From Paramecium tetraurelia (taxonomy: Eukaryota > Ciliophora > Oligohymenophorea > Peniculida > Parameciidae): 64,000 bases of DNA. This document shows, piece after piece, positions 4,139 through 64,000 of this stretch. Numbering within the stretch: the first letter of the stretch is position 1; each line of letters begins with the position of its first letter. The position numbers were made by a program, and so were the translations under genes. The DNA lies in NCBI RefSeq assembly GCF_000165425.1, contig NW_001799019.1:65165-129164 (forward strand). The letters run 5' to 3'. The notes beneath the pieces were generated by a model that saw only the letters and a program-made list of their open reading frames with translations, did no database searches and was not told the DNA's origin.

Positions 4139-5794
<1,656 letters not shown>

Positions 5795-6080
5795 TTTGAA
5801 TTTATTTAAATTAAATCGTTGATGGATAATATAAAAAAATCATAGCACAATTTCTATTGATCTATTTTAGAAGATATATATAGTGAAAGGCATGATGAAT
5901 AAGCCTAAACTTTAGAAAGCCCTTCAAATTCAGGAAGGAACCAATTAGGGAAATAGATATTACGGGATTTCATTTAATAGAAGAATTTGAAGATAGATAA
6001 AACAAGGATATAATGGAAGGACAAATTTTTAGGTTAACCTTATATCATTTGTAGAGGTGATATAACTCAATAATGAAAAT

Positions 6081-32704: not shown

Positions 32705-35569
32705 TCACAAGCGCTATTGTTGTCTAATCTTTGATTTCTCTATAACACTTAAGATTTAAGCTGCATGCCTTTGAGTCTTCTTTGGCCTCTTCGCCTTCAT
32801 TAAGACGATATCCAAATTGAAATTGACAAAATAATGTTTCGTGTTGAAGCATTGATCTATATCAAAATCTATTCTTTGTCTTGATTTATAAGAAATTTCT
32901 TCCAGTTTAGAATTGCTAGTTTCCTAAATCATGGAAAGTGAAAATTATCTCAAATCCGACCTTGACTATTATTATTAAGTTTTAATCAATTGGGTCATCT
33001 GTTAGTCAAGATTTTGATATGAATTAGAATTTCCTTTTCTTAATTGCCTAGATCTTGATGAAATACTGGCATGATGCATTTACATCTATTAAGTCGGCTA
33101 ACAAATTTATTATGGCTACAATTAAGATGCATAGGAGTTTTAGGATTAGGAACTTTGTTATAAAACCTATCCCAAATTGGATAGATCTTAGGATAGAGCA
33201 GATATAGAGCTGCCCCGATGATTTTGAATTTATGATAGTTTGGCAAAGGTTCTTTTGCTTCCCCTGACACGTTTAAATTTGGAAGTCTGTTTACCAAATT
33301 CCTTAGATTCAGGGGATATTTGCAGGAATTAAACTTTCTTCTCAAGATTAGGACTTTTTGATTAATTTATTAGATGAATTTAATTGTCCTCCTCATCAGA
33401 ATCTTGGCTACTTGAGTTTTAGGTGTTGCTTGTTTTCATACTTAATAATGTCTTTATCATATGATTATTCTAATTAATATTGATGACATAGCCTAACGTA
33501 TCTAAATATTGATCAGTCAAGTCTTCCAGAGGTATGTAATTGTTGTCTACAATTTATTGAAGAGCTGATTCTTGTAAAAGTTATTTGTCGAATCTTGTTT
33601 TTTCGTTGAGATATCTTTTATATCTTTTTCTTTTATTATCCTCTGTTATCATGAACCTCTTTCGCAATCTATCAAGGTTAACATGATAGAATACGAAAGG
33701 GCATTTCATAAACTGGTGAGTCCATCTGCATATATAGCATACTTCTCCATAGTTTTATTTCTCCTCATTAAATAGCATCTCATCCTTCAACATTTAGTAA
33801 TTCTCTTCCTCTATTGGATCTTCTTTTATGATTTTAAAAAAATCCTCATATTGGATATAAGCAATTTGACAGAACTTAGTAGTCCTTATGGAATAATCGT
33901 ATCGAGATTAAATAATGAATTCCTTTTCTCCTATAAATTTACCAGCATTAATGACTGCTAATTGAGTTTCTCTGTTTGCTTAATCGCAAATCAAATTTAT
34001 TTATCCTTTCTATAAAAAGAACAGCTTATTAGCCAATTCATTCTGAGCCTCCACGATCTCTTCAGGAGCCATCCTCTTCTCTCTCACATAACAACATAGC
34101 TTCTTGACACTCTTCTCTGATAGGGTTTTCTTAATAAGTCTGGAACTCATCAAAGTATTGTGATATAAATCAATAGCAACTTATTCCTTTAGCTTCTTAT
34201 TTAATGCGTTCATCATATTCTCTCCAAACTCAGTATTCTCATCTTGCATTTTCAAGTAATATTCAAAATATTTTCTTACTGACAAAATCAATTGCTTGCT
34301 TAATTGCCTCTTTTTTACATAATTGTTTAGTTATGTCATCTTCTATTTGTAAATTTACTCCTTCTCTGTTAACTGTCTCAGTATATTTCCAATACTTGAT
34401 ATAGTGTATCCGAACAACCCACATATCACCATAGCCATCAGGATCACAAATATCCTTTCGAGATCACTTTAAGGAACTATATCCCCATATCCCACTGTCA
34501 GGGTGGTGACGGTAGTAAAGTATAGTGAATGGATGTATCTTGAATCCCATTAGGCATCAACGATACCCTTTGAATCCAACCAAGAATAATTCCCAGCATC
34601 TTATTGCATCTATCCGATCAAATTCCATAAACAAGCACAGCAATGAGAAACAAACAATAATAAAAAGACCGATTTAAATAATTCCAACACTGTTTACATT
34701 GTGATTGAAGGGTTGATTGCTTCCTCTACTGAATTAATCAAAGTCTTTACTTTTGCCAATCTCAGCATTAAAATATACTCAGTGTATTTTATTTTGAAGG
34801 AGGATAAGATGAATGGAATTGCGATCAATAGATCCCACCACAATTCATATCTTGCATAATTTCTGATGATATCCTTGTGGCTTTTGTGGATCTACCCCTT
34901 ACTGTAATAAGCAGTGAAGAAATTTATGATTATATCCACAATAAAGGTCCAAGAGGGTAATGATTCAAAAAATAATTGATACAGTATTCCCTCGTTTTAA
35001 AAGCCAAATCCTATTTTCATTGGGATATAAAAAATATTCAAGATTATTTAAATTAATAGAAGTATATCCCACATCACCTTAAAATTAGAATCCGGATCCA
35101 TGATCGGAATGTGGCTTAAGGCCCATTTTAAATTTTAAATGAGAATTTAAATTTTATTCATATGTTTCTACAATAACACATCTGAATCACTTGCAGCATC
35201 TGATATTAATTTAAGAATGTTTGCATTTAGAGATTTAAATTTCACTTAAGTTGAATGATTTTTCATTTGTTTCACAAATTTAGTCATAAAGAACATAATC
35301 CTAAGACCCTTGGTACCCCACTTTTTATTTTTTATCTTAATGAGCTAGTCTTGACTGCTCTCTATATCTCTATCGAGAGGCATTTTAGTTTCTCTCTTTT
35401 ATTCAGTTATTTCGAATATACTTTATGCTAATTTCTACTCAGAACTAATGCTGGGTTCAAAAGAAACATCTTCGCTATTGTTATCACATTATGGTAAAGA
35501 GAAATCAGGTCGATTACTTAAAGATCGGCTTAGTACAGGGCTAACTTCAATTTCAAATACGATACACAT
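32705..35569 (-). CDS. Voltage-gated/CNBD K+ channel (EAG/CNG superfamily)
   Basis: A 954-codon frame with no intron. Six membrane segments are visible, roughly residues 175-430, with an S4-like KYTEYILMLRLAKVKTL. The pore helix and filter are YFTTVTTLTVGYGDIVP, so it is K+ selective. A C-linker and cyclic-nucleotide-binding domain follow (ELANKLFFLQKGQINLICD, AVINAGKFIGEKEFI). The long C-terminal tail is polar and basic. Paramecium has hundreds of such PAK-type channels controlling excitability and swimming. Whether the CNBD binds cyclic nucleotide cannot be told, because the RxAxI/V phosphate-binding motif is not evident. Confidence 0.92.
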
Positions 35570-36304
35570 TTTAGAATCTGTTAGAATAAGAATTTATGAT
35601 GCTTGACATCCAAATCGAAACTAGTATTAAAATTAATATTGCTAAACTAAATTAATTATATCCAATAATATGATGGCTTATTTACTAACAAAAATGTTGT
35701 TTACACTTGAATGAGATCATTACATTCACGATTAATAAATTGTAATAAACAACATTAATAATTATTATTCCAAAAAACAATATCCTAATATCTACAACTT
35801 AAGTCTATAAGATTACATTAATTATTTATAACTAATTAATAGTAATTCTGTTTGCTTAATTAAATAAAACATAAATAGATATGGCTCAGTTTCATTAAAT
35901 TAAATATCAAAATGACGAATGATTGTTTCTTCCAAAGTGATTCATTTCAGTATTTGCATTTAATAAACTTTAAAATTACATCAATTTGAAATTATTAATT
36001 TGAACCTCCATTTTTTGTAATTATATTCTGAATTTAATATTTAAAATGCATATGCATATGATTGTTTAATTTATCTTAACTGTATTTAGTATTGTTTAAT
36101 TGCATAAGACTAGAGCTTTGGAACTTCTGTTTTTTAAGCAATTTTCAATTTAAATAATTCTATTAAGTGATACTTTACAAAGTATTTTATATACACCATA
36201 TAATTATACAATCATTCTAATTTTCTATATTATTGAAAAATAAAAAAAGAAATGAGTCATGTTATAAATTGCTATTTAAATTATATAATTTTTTTAAAGG
36301 AAAA
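35570..36304. other. Intergenic, nothing identified
   Basis: Divergent gap between the channel and the CLEC16A-like gene. Rich in short A/T tracts, with no supported exon. Confidence 0.45.
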
Positions 36305-38356
36305 ATGGAAAAGGATTTTATGAATTAGATTAAAAACTTATAATAGAATATCAATATACAAGAGGCTATTTCAACTATTACAGAATTTACCATAATCGGA
36401 GACAAAAATAATTAGGACCTATTTGAGTATGAATTTCAAGATTTGTTAGCTTGTTCATTGAAGAGAAAGTAATTGATGATTTCCTTAGGATTCTAAAAAA
36501 AACAACCGAAGCAGATATTATAATCAAAATATTGTCATCTGTTTCCATGTTATTGTAACTAAAATCAATTTAATATGGTATAGTACTAATATCAATAATA
36601 ACCTAATTGTTCTCCTTTCCTTACCCTAATTAAACGAATTCATCATATTCGATTATAATTTGAAAAAGGAAGAGATCCCAGATTACTACATCAATTTTAT
36701 TAAAATTATCTCAAATAAGCTAAATGCTGGTAATATTTAATTATTCTTCAACTCTGTAAGCATATATCATTTAACACTTATAGAAATATTGCTAGTTCCC
36801 ATTATTGCTTTACTCATAAAACTTCTACAATTCACCAGATAACTTAACACGAATATATACAAGACATTTGCTATTACACATTTTGTAAATTACTTAGGAA
36901 TCAAAACTAAGTCCAATCCTAGTAAAGTACTTGCAATCTTATCCCTTTTTATAAGTTCTGGCAAATCATATGCAATTCATGAGGGAATTGTTTGCAAAAA
37001 CCAAAGAAAAACATGATAATTTTGAAGAAGAACTTGGTCTTATGGATCATTTCTTTAAAGATCTCTCTCAAATAGTTCCTCAATTGAAATAAGTAACAGC
37101 ATCCTTATTTTAAGATTTTAGATAATCTAATAATGCAGATCATAATTTTACCGTAATATAAGGAAATAACAAACATAAAAGATGATTAGAAAACTTAATG
37201 TTTTAACACCATCTTGCACTTTTTATAAAATGATATTTATGTTAGTGAAAGATTGTAAGTTGGAATATTTTCATTGATTTTTTTGCACGAAATACCAGAA
37301 TTTCAAATATTTGAAATAGAATTAAATTATTTACCAGTTTAGGATCCTGAAATAAGAGAAATTTGCCTAAATTTCTTTAAAAATTCCTCAAACATCTAAG
37401 AATCACGCTTTATGGTATTGGAAAAATTAAATTATACTTTATCCTTAATTCCATATTTATCAAGTTATTATTCAAAGAGTAATCCAAAATACTTATTATT
37501 TGAAGAATTATTGAAAAATGATGTTGTTTCTATTTTATTAATGTCTAACAATCTTTAATATTATAAATAGTAGGTGTATAATTTATATAACATTTATACT
37601 TTTTTGGATTGTTTGAATGAAGGTCATTATTTATAGGTTTTGGATATTATGCTTGTTTTGATAATGAACAAACATATCTTTTAGATGACTTCACTCCAAA
37701 AAGTGAGTTTTCTTATTAATTTAATTAACATTATGATAAATGAATCAGAGAACAAAATAAATACGATTGAAAATTGCAAGAAAAGTATTTAAATTGTAAA
37801 GGAACTAATTTCAAATTATGAGAAGAGATTTATGATTGCATTTATGAGATGCAATGTTTTAAAAAAAATAGAAATTCACTTTATCAATTCAGAATCCCTT
37901 TATTATAAATATTTTTTTAAGATTTAATAATGCGTAGAAGATGAGAATATAGAAGTATTTAAAAAAAAACCAGAAACACATTAAATAATCAGATTTTTTA
38001 TGTTTTTAAATGTGATTTTAGAATAGGGGTGGCTAGCAAATCCATTTAAGAAGATTAATTATAATTTAACCTTTGAACCGAAGTCATTTAAAAATGGATA
38101 GATTAAACTAATTAATTGTTAAGCTATAATAGAAAATAACACTTATGAATTAGAAGAATTAGAAGTAATGTATGATTAAGAGCAGAAAAAGGTGATAATT
38201 GTAAATTTAATTAATGAAAATGAAAATTACAAGGTTGAATTCGAGGAAGCAGTTGAATAGGAAGAATTTTTAGTAGAATTCTAGATGAGGCAAAAGTATT
38301 AAGAATAACACTTTGTTCCAGAAACTCTACGACAATTGAATAAATTATACTTATGA
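36305..38356 (+). CDS. CLEC16A/GOP-1/Ema-like FPL-domain protein
   Basis: Introns 36427-36449, 36555-36583, 36756-36783 and 37153-37189 (37 nt, long for this genome) give 644 codons exactly. The FPL domain is clear: FTIIGDKNNQDLFDLFIEEK, LNEFIIFDYNLKKEEIPDYY, INFIKIISNKLNAGNIQLFF, then RIYTRHLLLHIL. The C-terminal half is helical, with MRCNVLKKIEIHF and an acidic end. CLEC16A, worm GOP-1 and fly Ema promote Rab2 activation, endosome maturation and mitophagy. Animal C-terminal extensions are absent. Function is inferred from family. Confidence 0.85.
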
Positions 38357-38689
38357 ATTTATATAATTTATTATTTTAAATAATAAAATAATTTTTAATT
38401 ATGATGATTTCAACAATATTAAGCTAATATGATCATTTTATGATTATAGATATTGGAGCTGATCTGATATGGTATATTAAATTAAATAAATGATGAATTT
38501 GATTATTTTAATTGCTGATGCAAAAAATGATTACAAATTTATTGGAGTTGTTTGATAATATTTAAAATACACAAACCCATATTTTAATTTAAACTATTAT
38601 AGTAAATTATAAAGCATTAAATGTCTTTATATTTACATATTAAATTATCAAACATAGCTCTGTTTCTTAAGGATATTAATTATATATAT
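38357..38689. other. Intergenic leader of the snoRNA cluster
   Basis: AT-rich, ends in a (TA)n tract (38681-38693) just before the first C box. It probably contains the promoter of the snoRNA transcript; no sharp motif. Confidence 0.4.
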
Positions 38690-38785
38690 ATATAATGATG
38701 AAACGATGACGAGTATGAAGGAATCGATAGACATCCATCTATTATTCCTGCATCAATGATTATTTGAGGCATTTGTCTGAACAAT
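38690..38785 (+). ncRNA. Box C/D snoRNA 1
   Basis: C box ATGATGA (38695-38701) and D box CTGA (38777-38780), flanked by complementary TA-rich ends. An internal C'-like AATGATTA is present near 38756. The guide before the D box, TGAGGCATTTG, is antisense to the conserved LSU rRNA segment around CAAATGCCTC (recalled), suggesting a 2'-O-methylation guide. Confidence 0.75.
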
Positions 38786-38797
38786 ATAGAAAAATAT

Positions 38798-38862
38798 GAA
38801 TTAATGAAGATATAAATGCCGCCCCAGTCTTAACGACTCTGATGATACGGCTCATGACAGAT
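38798..38862 (+). ncRNA. Box C/D snoRNA 2 (less certain limits)
   Basis: A variant C box ATGAAGA (38804-38810) is followed by GCCGCCCCAGTC, antisense to the conserved LSU segment GACTGGGGCGG (recalled). An overlapping CTGA/TGATGAT (38839-38846) looks like D'/C'. The final D box would be a variant CAGA near 38859. Boxes are atypical, so the ends are approximate. Confidence 0.45.
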
Positions 38863-38879
38863 TTATTATTATAGTTATA

Positions 38880-38952
38880 TTAAAGTGATGTAAAAATATT
38901 TGCTACTCTTGAAATAGCATGATGAGACAACCACCAAGATCTCTGATTCACA
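38880..38952 (+). ncRNA. Box C/D snoRNA 3
   Basis: C box GTGATGT (38885-38891), internal C' ATGATGA near 38929, D box CTGA (38943-38946). The guide CCACCAAGATCT, directly before D, is antisense to the conserved LSU segment AGATCTTGGTGG (recalled). The fifth base from D would target the C in that segment. Confidence 0.8.
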
Positions 38953-38973
38953 ATAAAATTATATATATATATA

Positions 38974-39038
38974 CAAAGTGATGATTTTGTAGTCCATGAT
39001 TAATCATGATTTCAATCTTTCGCTCCTATCTGATACAC
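38974..39038 (+). ncRNA. Box C/D snoRNA 4
   Basis: Perfect C box GTGATGA (38978-38984) and D box CTGA (39030-39033). The guide TCTTTCGCTCCTAT before D is antisense to an LSU segment of the type ATAGGRGCGAAAGA (recalled). Preceded by a (TA)n spacer. Confidence 0.82.
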
Positions 39039-39057
39039 ATAAATTAAAATTATATAA

Positions 39058-39130
39058 ATATAATGATGACTATTAAGTACTAGAGTCTATGACTTCAATA
39101 TGAACTACAACCCTTGGCTGTCTGAAATTA
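39058..39130 (+). ncRNA. Box C/D snoRNA 5
   Basis: C box ATGATGA (39063-39069) and D box CTGA (39122-39125). The guide CCCTTGGCTGT before D is antisense to the conserved LSU segment ACAGCCAAGGG (recalled). Followed by a (TA)n spacer. Confidence 0.85.
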
Positions 39131-39146
39131 AAAAACTATATATATA

Positions 39147-39217
39147 TATATATGATGATAACTGACACCTCTTGATTGAGCCTATTGGCATTGATCGGAA
39201 TTCACCGTCTGAACTCT
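39147..39217 (+). ncRNA. Box C/D snoRNA 6
   Basis: C box ATGATGA (39152-39158), an early CTGA (39162-39165) and D box CTGA (39209-39212). The guide before D is CGGAATTCACCGT; I cannot match it to a known rRNA site. Last member of the cluster. Confidence 0.75.
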
Positions 39218-62014: not shown

Positions 62015-64000
62015 ATGCAATTCTTATTGTATTCAATATGCTTCCTATTGCTCCTCGTATAGGTTCAAACATAGGATGAGAATGAGATTAAGTGTGACTA
62101 ATATTTTGTGAACATTACCACAGCCATACTCATGGGAAAAATGCCAACCAATCTGTCACCGTAAACAATTCTAAGCTCAGCAAAAGGACTTTAAGATTTA
62201 GGTTCCTATCTGGTTTGTAAGGATTCTGCGGATTTACATTACATTCATCTCAGAATGATGAGCGAAGGAAAACCTATGCATATGGGTTTTTGTTTACCCG
62301 AATATTGCGAATAGAGTCACCTCCAAAAATATAACACCCCAACCAAAGATCTCATCAACAATTTTACTGTACTTATCTCCATCTTAACCGTTAGATGCGT
62401 CTATATAACAAATCAATGGTCGACAGCGCTTCCTACTAAGATCCAGATTTAATTTATCCGTCATGGACTGTAGGAACCTATTTGACTCTAGTTCTGTTGA
62501 TTGTCATAGTGGCACTCAATGTTATCGGAAGCATCTTTTCGATTATAGCAGAAAACAAAAAATAAGCGTATTAAGATGACCTGAAGACAGAGATCAAGAG
62601 GAAAGCAGCCCAGAAAATAAATGAGTCCCACTAGGATGAGAATTCATTAAAGGACTCCATATCTCAACTCTACAAGAGATCAGAATTGATTTGTAAATAA
62701 ATAAATAAATTATATTTAGAAAATGAAATCATGGAGAATCAGGAATCTGCTTTCATGAGTGGCAAAGGTTAATTCGAAGAAATCAAATACAAGAAATACA
62801 AAGAACCATCTTGGGAAAGATTCGCTTTGAGTTTCTCCTTTATCCACAATTACCAAAAACTATTTAAGATTAATGAACCCAAAGGTGAGAATGCTGGATT
62901 TGTGATTTTTAATGGCATAAGATCATTGTCAATATTTTGGGTAATTTATGGTCACGATCAACTCATTCGAGGCTCCAATTCCTTCAATTTGATAGATATA
63001 CCATACAAGATCACTGAAGCCGGATGGCTCACACTCACACCAGCTGCATACTTTGCTGTCGACACCTTCTTTTTTGTGGGAGGATTCTTGGCTGCTGTTT
63101 TACTTCTGGAAAAGTTGACCAAATTGAGGTCCATCAAGTTTTCATTGGTGCCAGCAATGTGGGTACATAGATTCTTAAGAATATGGCCTACATATGCATT
63201 TTGCATTCTAGTGTATTGGCAATTGACTGTTTATTGGTCAGATGGACCTATCTGGAATGAATATATAGAGTATACCTCCACTTGCAATACTTAATGGTGG
63301 AAGAATCTATTATTCATTGACAACATGTTTTCACATGATGCCAGTGGATTGAACTATTGTTTTGGTTGGGGTTGGTATCTATCCAACGATTTCCAGATCT
63401 TTCTTATCACTCCAATATTATTGATTATCTATGCTAAAAACAGAAAAATTGGATTAGCTCTTATTATTTCAATGCTAATCGGAAGCGTATTTTCAGCCTA
63501 TTACATAGCTTATTCTCACGATTACCATTTATAAATGGCCACTCCTAATGCTAAACCACAGCCAGACTATCAAGATGTTTTCTACTTCAAACCTTGGATC
63601 AGGATCTCTCCCTACCTCATAGGCATCCTATTTGGATTCTTCTATTGCAATTACATTAGTGGTTAGAATTAAAAAATGGTTTAAGTGGCATAGAAAATTA
63701 AGGACAGCGTAGTTATCAGAACCCTATTCTATGTCTTCGGAATCGGGTTGACTTAAACGATCATTTGGATCATAGTCCCTCTTTAAAAGGACATGAATGC
63801 TTGGCCTCCTTAAGCCTAATATTTCTACTAAGCCTTTAACAGAGTGTTTTTTGTCATAGGTGTTGGATTGTGCATTACTCCTGCTCTTTTGGGTTGCAAA
63901 AATGATCCGTCAAGATTTATGTATACTTTGATAATAATTTAGACTCGGACATCCCTTTTGGCAACCCATAGCCAGAATATCGTTCTGCATGTACTTGACA
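62015..64000 (+). CDS. NRF-6-type acyltransferase-3 membrane protein (3' end outside window)
   Basis: A signal peptide (FLLYSICFLLLLV) opens the frame, followed by the extracellular NRF domain (IKCDQYFVNITTAILMGKM, FCLPEYCEQ). Introns are 62369-62394 and 63921-63942. After a membrane helix (LVLLIVIVALNVIGSIFS) comes the acyltransferase-3 core: FNGIRSLSIFWVIYGHDQL with the catalytic His, AVDTFFFVGGFLAAVLL, HRFLRIWPTYAF, CFGWGWYLSNDFQIFLITPILL. The family (nose resistant to fluoxetine) probably acylates lipids or transports lipids. The sequence runs off the right edge. Confidence 0.9.

Follow-up and report, generated by a model that had tools for sequence, protein, structure and literature searches.

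What is encoded at positions 38690-39217 of the 64-kb stretch of Paramecium DNA analysed here (the window, corresponding to C66:65165-129164), and are its parts expressed together or one by one? The first-pass annotation had placed a cluster of six box C/D snoRNAs in this region, and six such units were found at these very positions, all on the + strand. They are given below together with the upstream sequence element (USE), the predicted leader and two further candidates that precede them.

38396..38472, + strand: candidate box C/D snoRNA 'a', upstream of the USE (C box 38401, D box 38464; recognized by eye)
38486..38560, + strand: candidate box C/D snoRNA 'b', with a guide similar to that of a (recognized by eye)
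38572..38589, + strand: USE of snRNA type, CAAACCCATATTTTAATT
38636..38689, + strand: predicted 5' leader with apparent decayed remains of a unit called u0 (start near 38636 according to the 63-nt spacing described below)
38690..38784, + strand: unit 1, box C/D snoRNA similar to SNORD15, plasmodium_snoR21, and TtnuCD10
38798..38866, + strand: unit 2, box C/D snoRNA with weak boxes, similar to DdR13 and SNORD31
38880..38950, + strand: unit 3, SNORD24 (U24), RF00069 with 55.3 bits for a gathering score of 41
38974..39038, + strand: unit 4, box C/D snoRNA with a D guide to LSU ATAGGRGCGAAAGA
39059..39129, + strand: unit 5, box C/D snoRNA similar to TtnuCD15
39149..39216, + strand: unit 6, box C/D snoRNA similar to TtnuCD16

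The surrounding DNA is AT-rich. With the standard code, no more than 4 frames of at least 150 aa are found in the 64 kb, while the ciliate code keeps a frame of 1003 aa open at 32705-35716, in which 63 codons are reassigned. This frame, on the - strand, encodes an ion channel carrying Ion_trans and cNMP_binding domains, whose nearest named relatives are Paramecium proteins, many related ones being present in Paramecium species. A tRNA-Pro (AGG) was predicted by ARAGORN at 1085-1155 on the - strand.

Box C/D snoRNAs are defined by a C box, RUGAUGA, near their 5' end and by a D box, CUGA, near their 3' end, and their mature forms are stable RNAs of 60-100 nt to which Nop58, Nop56, 15.5K, and fibrillarin bind. 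Along the array, the C boxes of units 1-6 start at 38695 (ATGATGA), 38804 (ATGAAGA), 38885 (GTGATGT), 38978 (GTGATGA), 39063 (ATGATGA), and 39152 (ATGATGA), and CTGA D boxes are located at 38777, 38943, 39030, 39122, and 39209 in units 1, 3, 4, 5, and 6, five units combining CTGA with a C box that is the consensus or one letter off. Both boxes had been recognized in five units by the first-pass annotation, which called the sixth atypical; the irregular unit is instead unit 2, with ATGAAGA as C box and CAGA at 38858 as D box (CTGA in the C225 copy). Successive units are closely packed, the interval from a D box to the following C box being 23-31 nt.

In Rfam searches, a gathering score was reached by unit 3 alone, and the five other units scored below every gathering score. 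Unit 1 was matched by RF01864 (70.7 bits, cut-off 90; E 2.8e-9), RF02287 (31.4 bits), and RF00067 (24.2 bits), unit 2 by RF01563 (DdR13; 30.0 bits, cut-off 65; E 0.0011) and RF00089 (22.8 bits), unit 5 by RF02291 (31.0 bits, cut-off 75; E 0.066), and unit 6 by RF02292 (36.3 bits, cut-off 75; E 2.7e-5).

The DNA of the cluster has three relatives in the genome (69.07 Mb in 231 contigs), located on C41 (96% identity), C225 (83%, other strand), and C224 (75%, with a similarity limited to query bases 407-533, i.e., the end of the array), which are probably copies arising from the known Paramecium genome duplications. All six units are present in the same order in C41 and C225. The C224 copy is decayed: as judged by eye, it keeps u0 and a unit 6 whose D' guide and D' box are altered, and of units 1-5 nothing or only decayed sequence is left. 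SNORD24 was found only in C66, C41, and C225, snoR21 and TtnuCD16 were also recovered in C41 and C225 (37.6 and 37.9 bits, respectively, for the TtnuCD16 model), DdR13 was recovered in C41, and at E 0.05 no Rfam model matched the C224 locus. Between C66 and C225, identity amounts to 72-89% in the units, 38-67% in the five spacers, 46% in the leader, and 38% in the 43 window bases downstream. Between C66 and C41, it reaches 96-99% in the units and 76-100% in the spacers, with 51% in the leader and 58% downstream; the spacers being also well kept in this pair, it is the comparison with C225 alone that sets units apart from spacers. An extra first snoRNA, u0, is present just downstream of the USE in C225 (L044) and C224 (L045).

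How the array may be transcribed is suggested by the DNA upstream of it. In C66, C41, and C225, CAAACCCATATTTTAAT lies ahead of the cluster, and a close variant takes its place in C224; the USE, compared over 38573-38590, is identical at 18/18 positions between C66 and C225 and at 16/18 between C66 and C41. The AAACCCAT that starts at 38573 is the sole A[AC]ACCCAT on the + strand of the 64-kb window (there is one on the - strand, at 62289), and is thus present as a single copy just upstream of the array, with none inside it. In all U2 (4/4) and U3 (2/2) genes found, the same motif starts 63 nt before the beginning of the Rfam match; this distance is 62 nt in one and 63 nt in the other of the two U4 genes found, and in C225 and C224 the motif starts 65 nt before the u0 C box. 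The distance from the USE to the unit 1 C box is longer (122 nt in the window, 115 in C41), a length explained only by a decayed first unit, u0, whose remnant in C66 and C41, apparently decayed, was recognized by a resemblance judged by eye. The motif alone is not specific, since the 14-mer AAACCCATATTTTA has 9 exact sites genome-wide (3 at the cluster family; 4 for the reversed control) and the C225 and C224 loci (9.9 kb each) both contain one additional AAACCCAT outside the array. At E 0.05, no Rfam model matched any of the six other AAACCCATATTTTA loci, so that the motif loses value as a predictor by itself. We read the element as one snRNA-type promoter serving the array, with a start predicted near 38636. 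The polycistronic, non-intronic layout proposed at first pass is supported to this extent, one USE of snRNA type lying before the array and none within it, from which we infer a single transcript.

Two side observations concern such elements elsewhere in the genome. At L055-L060, L063, and L064, an AAACCCATA element is located 62-63 nt upstream of the U2, U3, and U4 genes, and ATTTAA(A)GG is found further down, common to the U2 and U3 genes. A snoR38-like snoRNA (41 bits, cut-off 45), the sole snoR38 locus of the genome search, lies in L065 (C189) with AAACCATAATT about 65 nt (counted by hand) before its C box; as judged by eye, only the variant AAACCAT is present upstream of it, which counts against the promoter reading.

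Alternatively, each of the six genes could be transcribed from its own promoter with the TA tracts acting as TATA boxes, a reading that we regard as unlikely. In Tetrahymena, the neighbouring snoRNA genes TtnuCD32 and TtnuCD33 have a USE of their own, at 98 and 118 bp upstream, respectively (PMC6315972), and three TA tracts of 14-17 nt stand directly before units 1, 4, and 6 of the array. These are the only tracts of (TA)5 or longer there, and half of the six such tracts of the whole 64-kb window; the initial description of units separated by (TA)n holds before units 1, 4, and 6 and fails for 3/5 gaps, which have no long TA tract. Against separate promoters, units 2, 3, and 5 lack a tract of at least five TA repeats, and the window has a single USE on the strand of the array, before it. 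Moreover, a TATA box is usually 25-30 nt from the start of transcription and the tracts end at the C boxes or at most 4 nt from them, so that a start at this spacing would fall inside the snoRNA; the TA tracts were rejected as promoters on this ground. The short D-to-C intervals and spacers that are only 0.38-0.67 identical to those of C225 also speak against a promoter in each gap.

Hosting of the array in an intron or in an untranslated region of a protein gene appears very improbable. An upstream reading frame on the + strand does end at 38356, shortly before candidates a and b, and Plasmodium snoRNAs are described in introns and in a 3' UTR (PMC2656528). However, the array is far longer than the introns of P. 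tetraurelia, about 98% of which measure 20-30 nt, a handful near 80 nt containing snoRNAs (PMC5485702), and it carries its own snRNA-type element. Such hosting is possible for candidates a and b.

It is hardly credible that the six units are decayed or silent copies left from genome duplication, even though units 1-5 have decayed in C224, whose locus escapes Rfam at E 0.05, and u0 looks decayed in the window. Boxes and guides are preserved in all six units of the window, which are nearly identical to those of C41, and the leader and the downstream bases are less alike to C41 than are the units. The one sign of wear is the CAGA D box of unit 2, which the window has in common with C41.

What the units would guide was addressed with surrogates. 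The own rDNA of the species was not found in the genome (0 matches for the 5.8S family and 0 for an LSU 18-mer with one mismatch), and the targets therefore rest on surrogate eukaryotic rRNAs, i.e., eukaryotic rDNA contigs (10 loci) filed as bacterial or viral entries in GTDB and IMG/VR records. Four of them served in the control, namely L042 (SSU, 5.8S, and an LSU cut at its 3' end), L040 (SSU and LSU), L039, and L035 (partial LSU only for the last two). L034 was added in the guide and G-U pairing tests and L037 in the guide test, both outside the four-surrogate control, and L033, L036, L038, and L041 stood outside guide matching, L041 having no rRNA match. Among these records, L040 contains at 5392-5807 a group I intron in a eukaryotic LSU rRNA gene, on a contig filed as a Chloroflexota MAG, and other GTDB records also contain eukaryotic rDNA.

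Each of the six units has one or more guides of at least 10 nt upstream of a D or D' box that match at least one surrogate rRNA. The D guide of unit 1 fits LSU CAAATGCCTC (10 nt in 4/4 surrogates), that of unit 5 fits ACAGCCAAGGG (11 nt in 4/4), and that of unit 3 fits AGATCTTGGTGGT (13 nt in 2/4, 10 nt in a third). The first two of these LSU segments had been given at first pass exactly as they read in 4/4 surrogates and the third as it reads in 2/4. For unit 4, the match of the D guide amounts to 11 Watson-Crick pairs in 1/4 surrogates and extends to 14 pairs in L042, L035, and L034 when one G-U is allowed. The unit 2 guide is located upstream of a degenerate D' box (CTTA 38829) and fits LSU CTGGGGCGGCA (11 nt in 4/4), as given at first pass except for the leading GA, which is GG in all four. 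The statement that guide 6 had no nameable match was not borne out, given that the D' guide of unit 6 (TTGA 39172) fits LSU GAGGTGTCAG (10 nt in 3/4). Additional D' guides were found in unit 1 (ATGA 38715), fitting the adjacent LSU CTCGTCAT(C) with 9 nt in L035 only and 8 nt plus G-U in L040 and L039, in unit 3 (TTGA 38909), fitting LSU AGTAGCAAATATT with 13 nt in 1/4 surrogates, and in unit 5 (ATGA 39089), fitting LSU GACTCTAGT with 9 nt in 3/4. The unit 4 D' guide and the unit 6 D guide had no run of at least 8 nt to the surrogate rRNAs. Outside the window, the guide of u0 fits LSU AAGCAGAAC (9 nt in L040, L039, and L035).

Among the 10 CTGA sites on the + strand between 38395 and 39220, 4 have a run of at least 10 nt, 3 of them in two or more surrogates. 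By comparison, 28 of the 388 other CTGA sites of the window (both strands) have such a run to any surrogate, a single one (1/388) matches two surrogates, and none matches three. Out of 5000 shuffles, the observed run was reached by 211 for the unit 1 D guide, 116 for unit 4 D, 254 for unit 6 D', 667 for unit 1 D', and 968 for unit 5 D' (9 nt). By itself, guide length provides modest evidence for several guides, and the weight lies with the agreement across species. Chance C and D motifs in AT-rich DNA, which such short and frequent motifs and the 28 sites elsewhere could evoke, have a likelihood close to nil, being contradicted by the Rfam E-values, the conservation between copies, and the guide matches in several species. 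The box C/D identity claimed at first pass is supported by the Rfam models, by the higher conservation of units than of spacers between C66 and C225, and by an rRNA complementarity above that of the control. We conclude that the snoRNA array is real and of an ordinary type, and that it belongs to a known kind as a member that is new or has perhaps been listed before.

Support for candidates a and b is weak. Their DNA is present only in C66 and C41, in tandem and with a common guide, ATTGGAG(C/T)TG. The guide TATTGGAGCTG of candidate a, which is retained in C41, matches SSU CAGCTCCAA(TA) over 9 nt in L042 only, a run reached by 808/5000 shuffles and not significant alone; if real, candidate a would be a transcript separate from the array. 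Candidate b has a TTGA D box in the window and CTGA in C41, its copy in the window has no 8-nt run to the surrogate rRNAs, and it is possibly decaying. SSU patterns for both guides retrieved nothing in viral contigs, and the cluster had no match among phages. Short snoRNA pieces hit 8 and 17 loci in viral contigs, which were taken as chance. SNORD14 was not found in the genome, a silence that shows no absence, since the control genomes gave none either.

Altogether, the locus most probably (roughly 0.88) represents a six-gene array with one snRNA-type promoter and one precursor, from which six guide RNAs for LSU rRNA methylation would be trimmed. That the array is transcribed as a unit, and that its RNAs are processed, bound by proteins, and used in methylation, is what we infer from the DNA. 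The promoter with its USE at 38572-38589 would drive one precursor across the array on the macronuclear chromosome, and cleavage and trimming of this precursor would yield six RNAs, about 65-95 nt in length. Each RNA would be bound by the C/D snoRNP proteins and pair with LSU rRNA through its guide or guides, and the methyltransferase would add a 2'-O-methyl group at the residue paired to the fifth guide nucleotide from the D or D' box, a rule that is established for the box C/D family. The predicted residues, in brackets, are CAA[A]TGCC and, more weakly, CTC[G]TCAT for unit 1, AGAT[C]TTGG and AGT[A]GCAA for unit 3, ATAG[G]RGCG for unit 4, and ACAG[C]CAAG and GAC[T]CTAGT for unit 5. For unit 2 a G of the GGGG run in CTGGGGCGG and for unit 6 GAGG[T]GTC would be modified, with an uncertain register in both cases because their D' boxes are not canonical. 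These are concrete predictions of rRNA methylation guides for Paramecium.

As to the history of the locus, we lean slightly towards a scenario in which the snRNA-type promoter, with its USE 63 nt before the start, serves single snRNA and U3 genes as well as this snoRNA operon, which would have become divided, after genome duplication, between the older duplicates: u0 would have stayed in C225 and C224 and decayed in C66 and C41, and C224 would have kept u0 and unit 6, with its D' guide and D' box changed, and lost units 1-5. With one snoRNA operon present in four copies that differ in how far they are retained or decayed, the locus would offer a natural experiment on how guide RNA dosage is maintained after genome duplication.

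Compared with known systems, unit 3 resembles SNORD24/U24 (RF00069) in its boxes, both guides, and a score above gathering. SNORD24 is hosted in introns in animals, whereas unit 3 belongs to an intergenic array. Units 1, 5, and 6 have boxes and guide stretches in common with Tetrahymena TtnuCD10, TtnuCD15, and TtnuCD16 (RF02287, RF02291, and RF02292), but score here below the thresholds, and the D guide of unit 6 is unlike that of TtnuCD16. Unit 1 also shares a ACGATGACGAG-type segment with both plasmodium_snoR21 and SNORD15 (RF01864 and RF00067), GAGGCATTTG being present in snoR21, from which it differs by a shorter middle part and a score below the cut-off. The unit 2 guide CCGCCCCAGTC is similar to that of DdR13/SNORD31 (RF01563 and RF00089), a likeness taken from the DdR13 alignment only, whereas the D box of unit 2 in the window is weak and the scores are low. 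The units are RNAs of the same kind as the 142 snoRNAs annotated in P. tetraurelia (PMC6735861), and the six genes are perhaps already among those catalogued. Among the titles listed, which leave aside most of the subscription literature, none was on this cluster or on a Paramecium USE, a result that does not establish their absence from the literature. Nearly all non-coding RNA genes were reportedly intergenic in the catalogue of Chen et al. in 2009. Finally, in the polycistronic clusters of plants and in PFS11-PFS12 of Plasmodium, several snoRNAs share one promoter and are cut from a precursor (PMC2656528); the present array, putatively of the same layout, is distinguished from these by its six units, its 23-31 nt from D to C box, and its ciliate-type USE.
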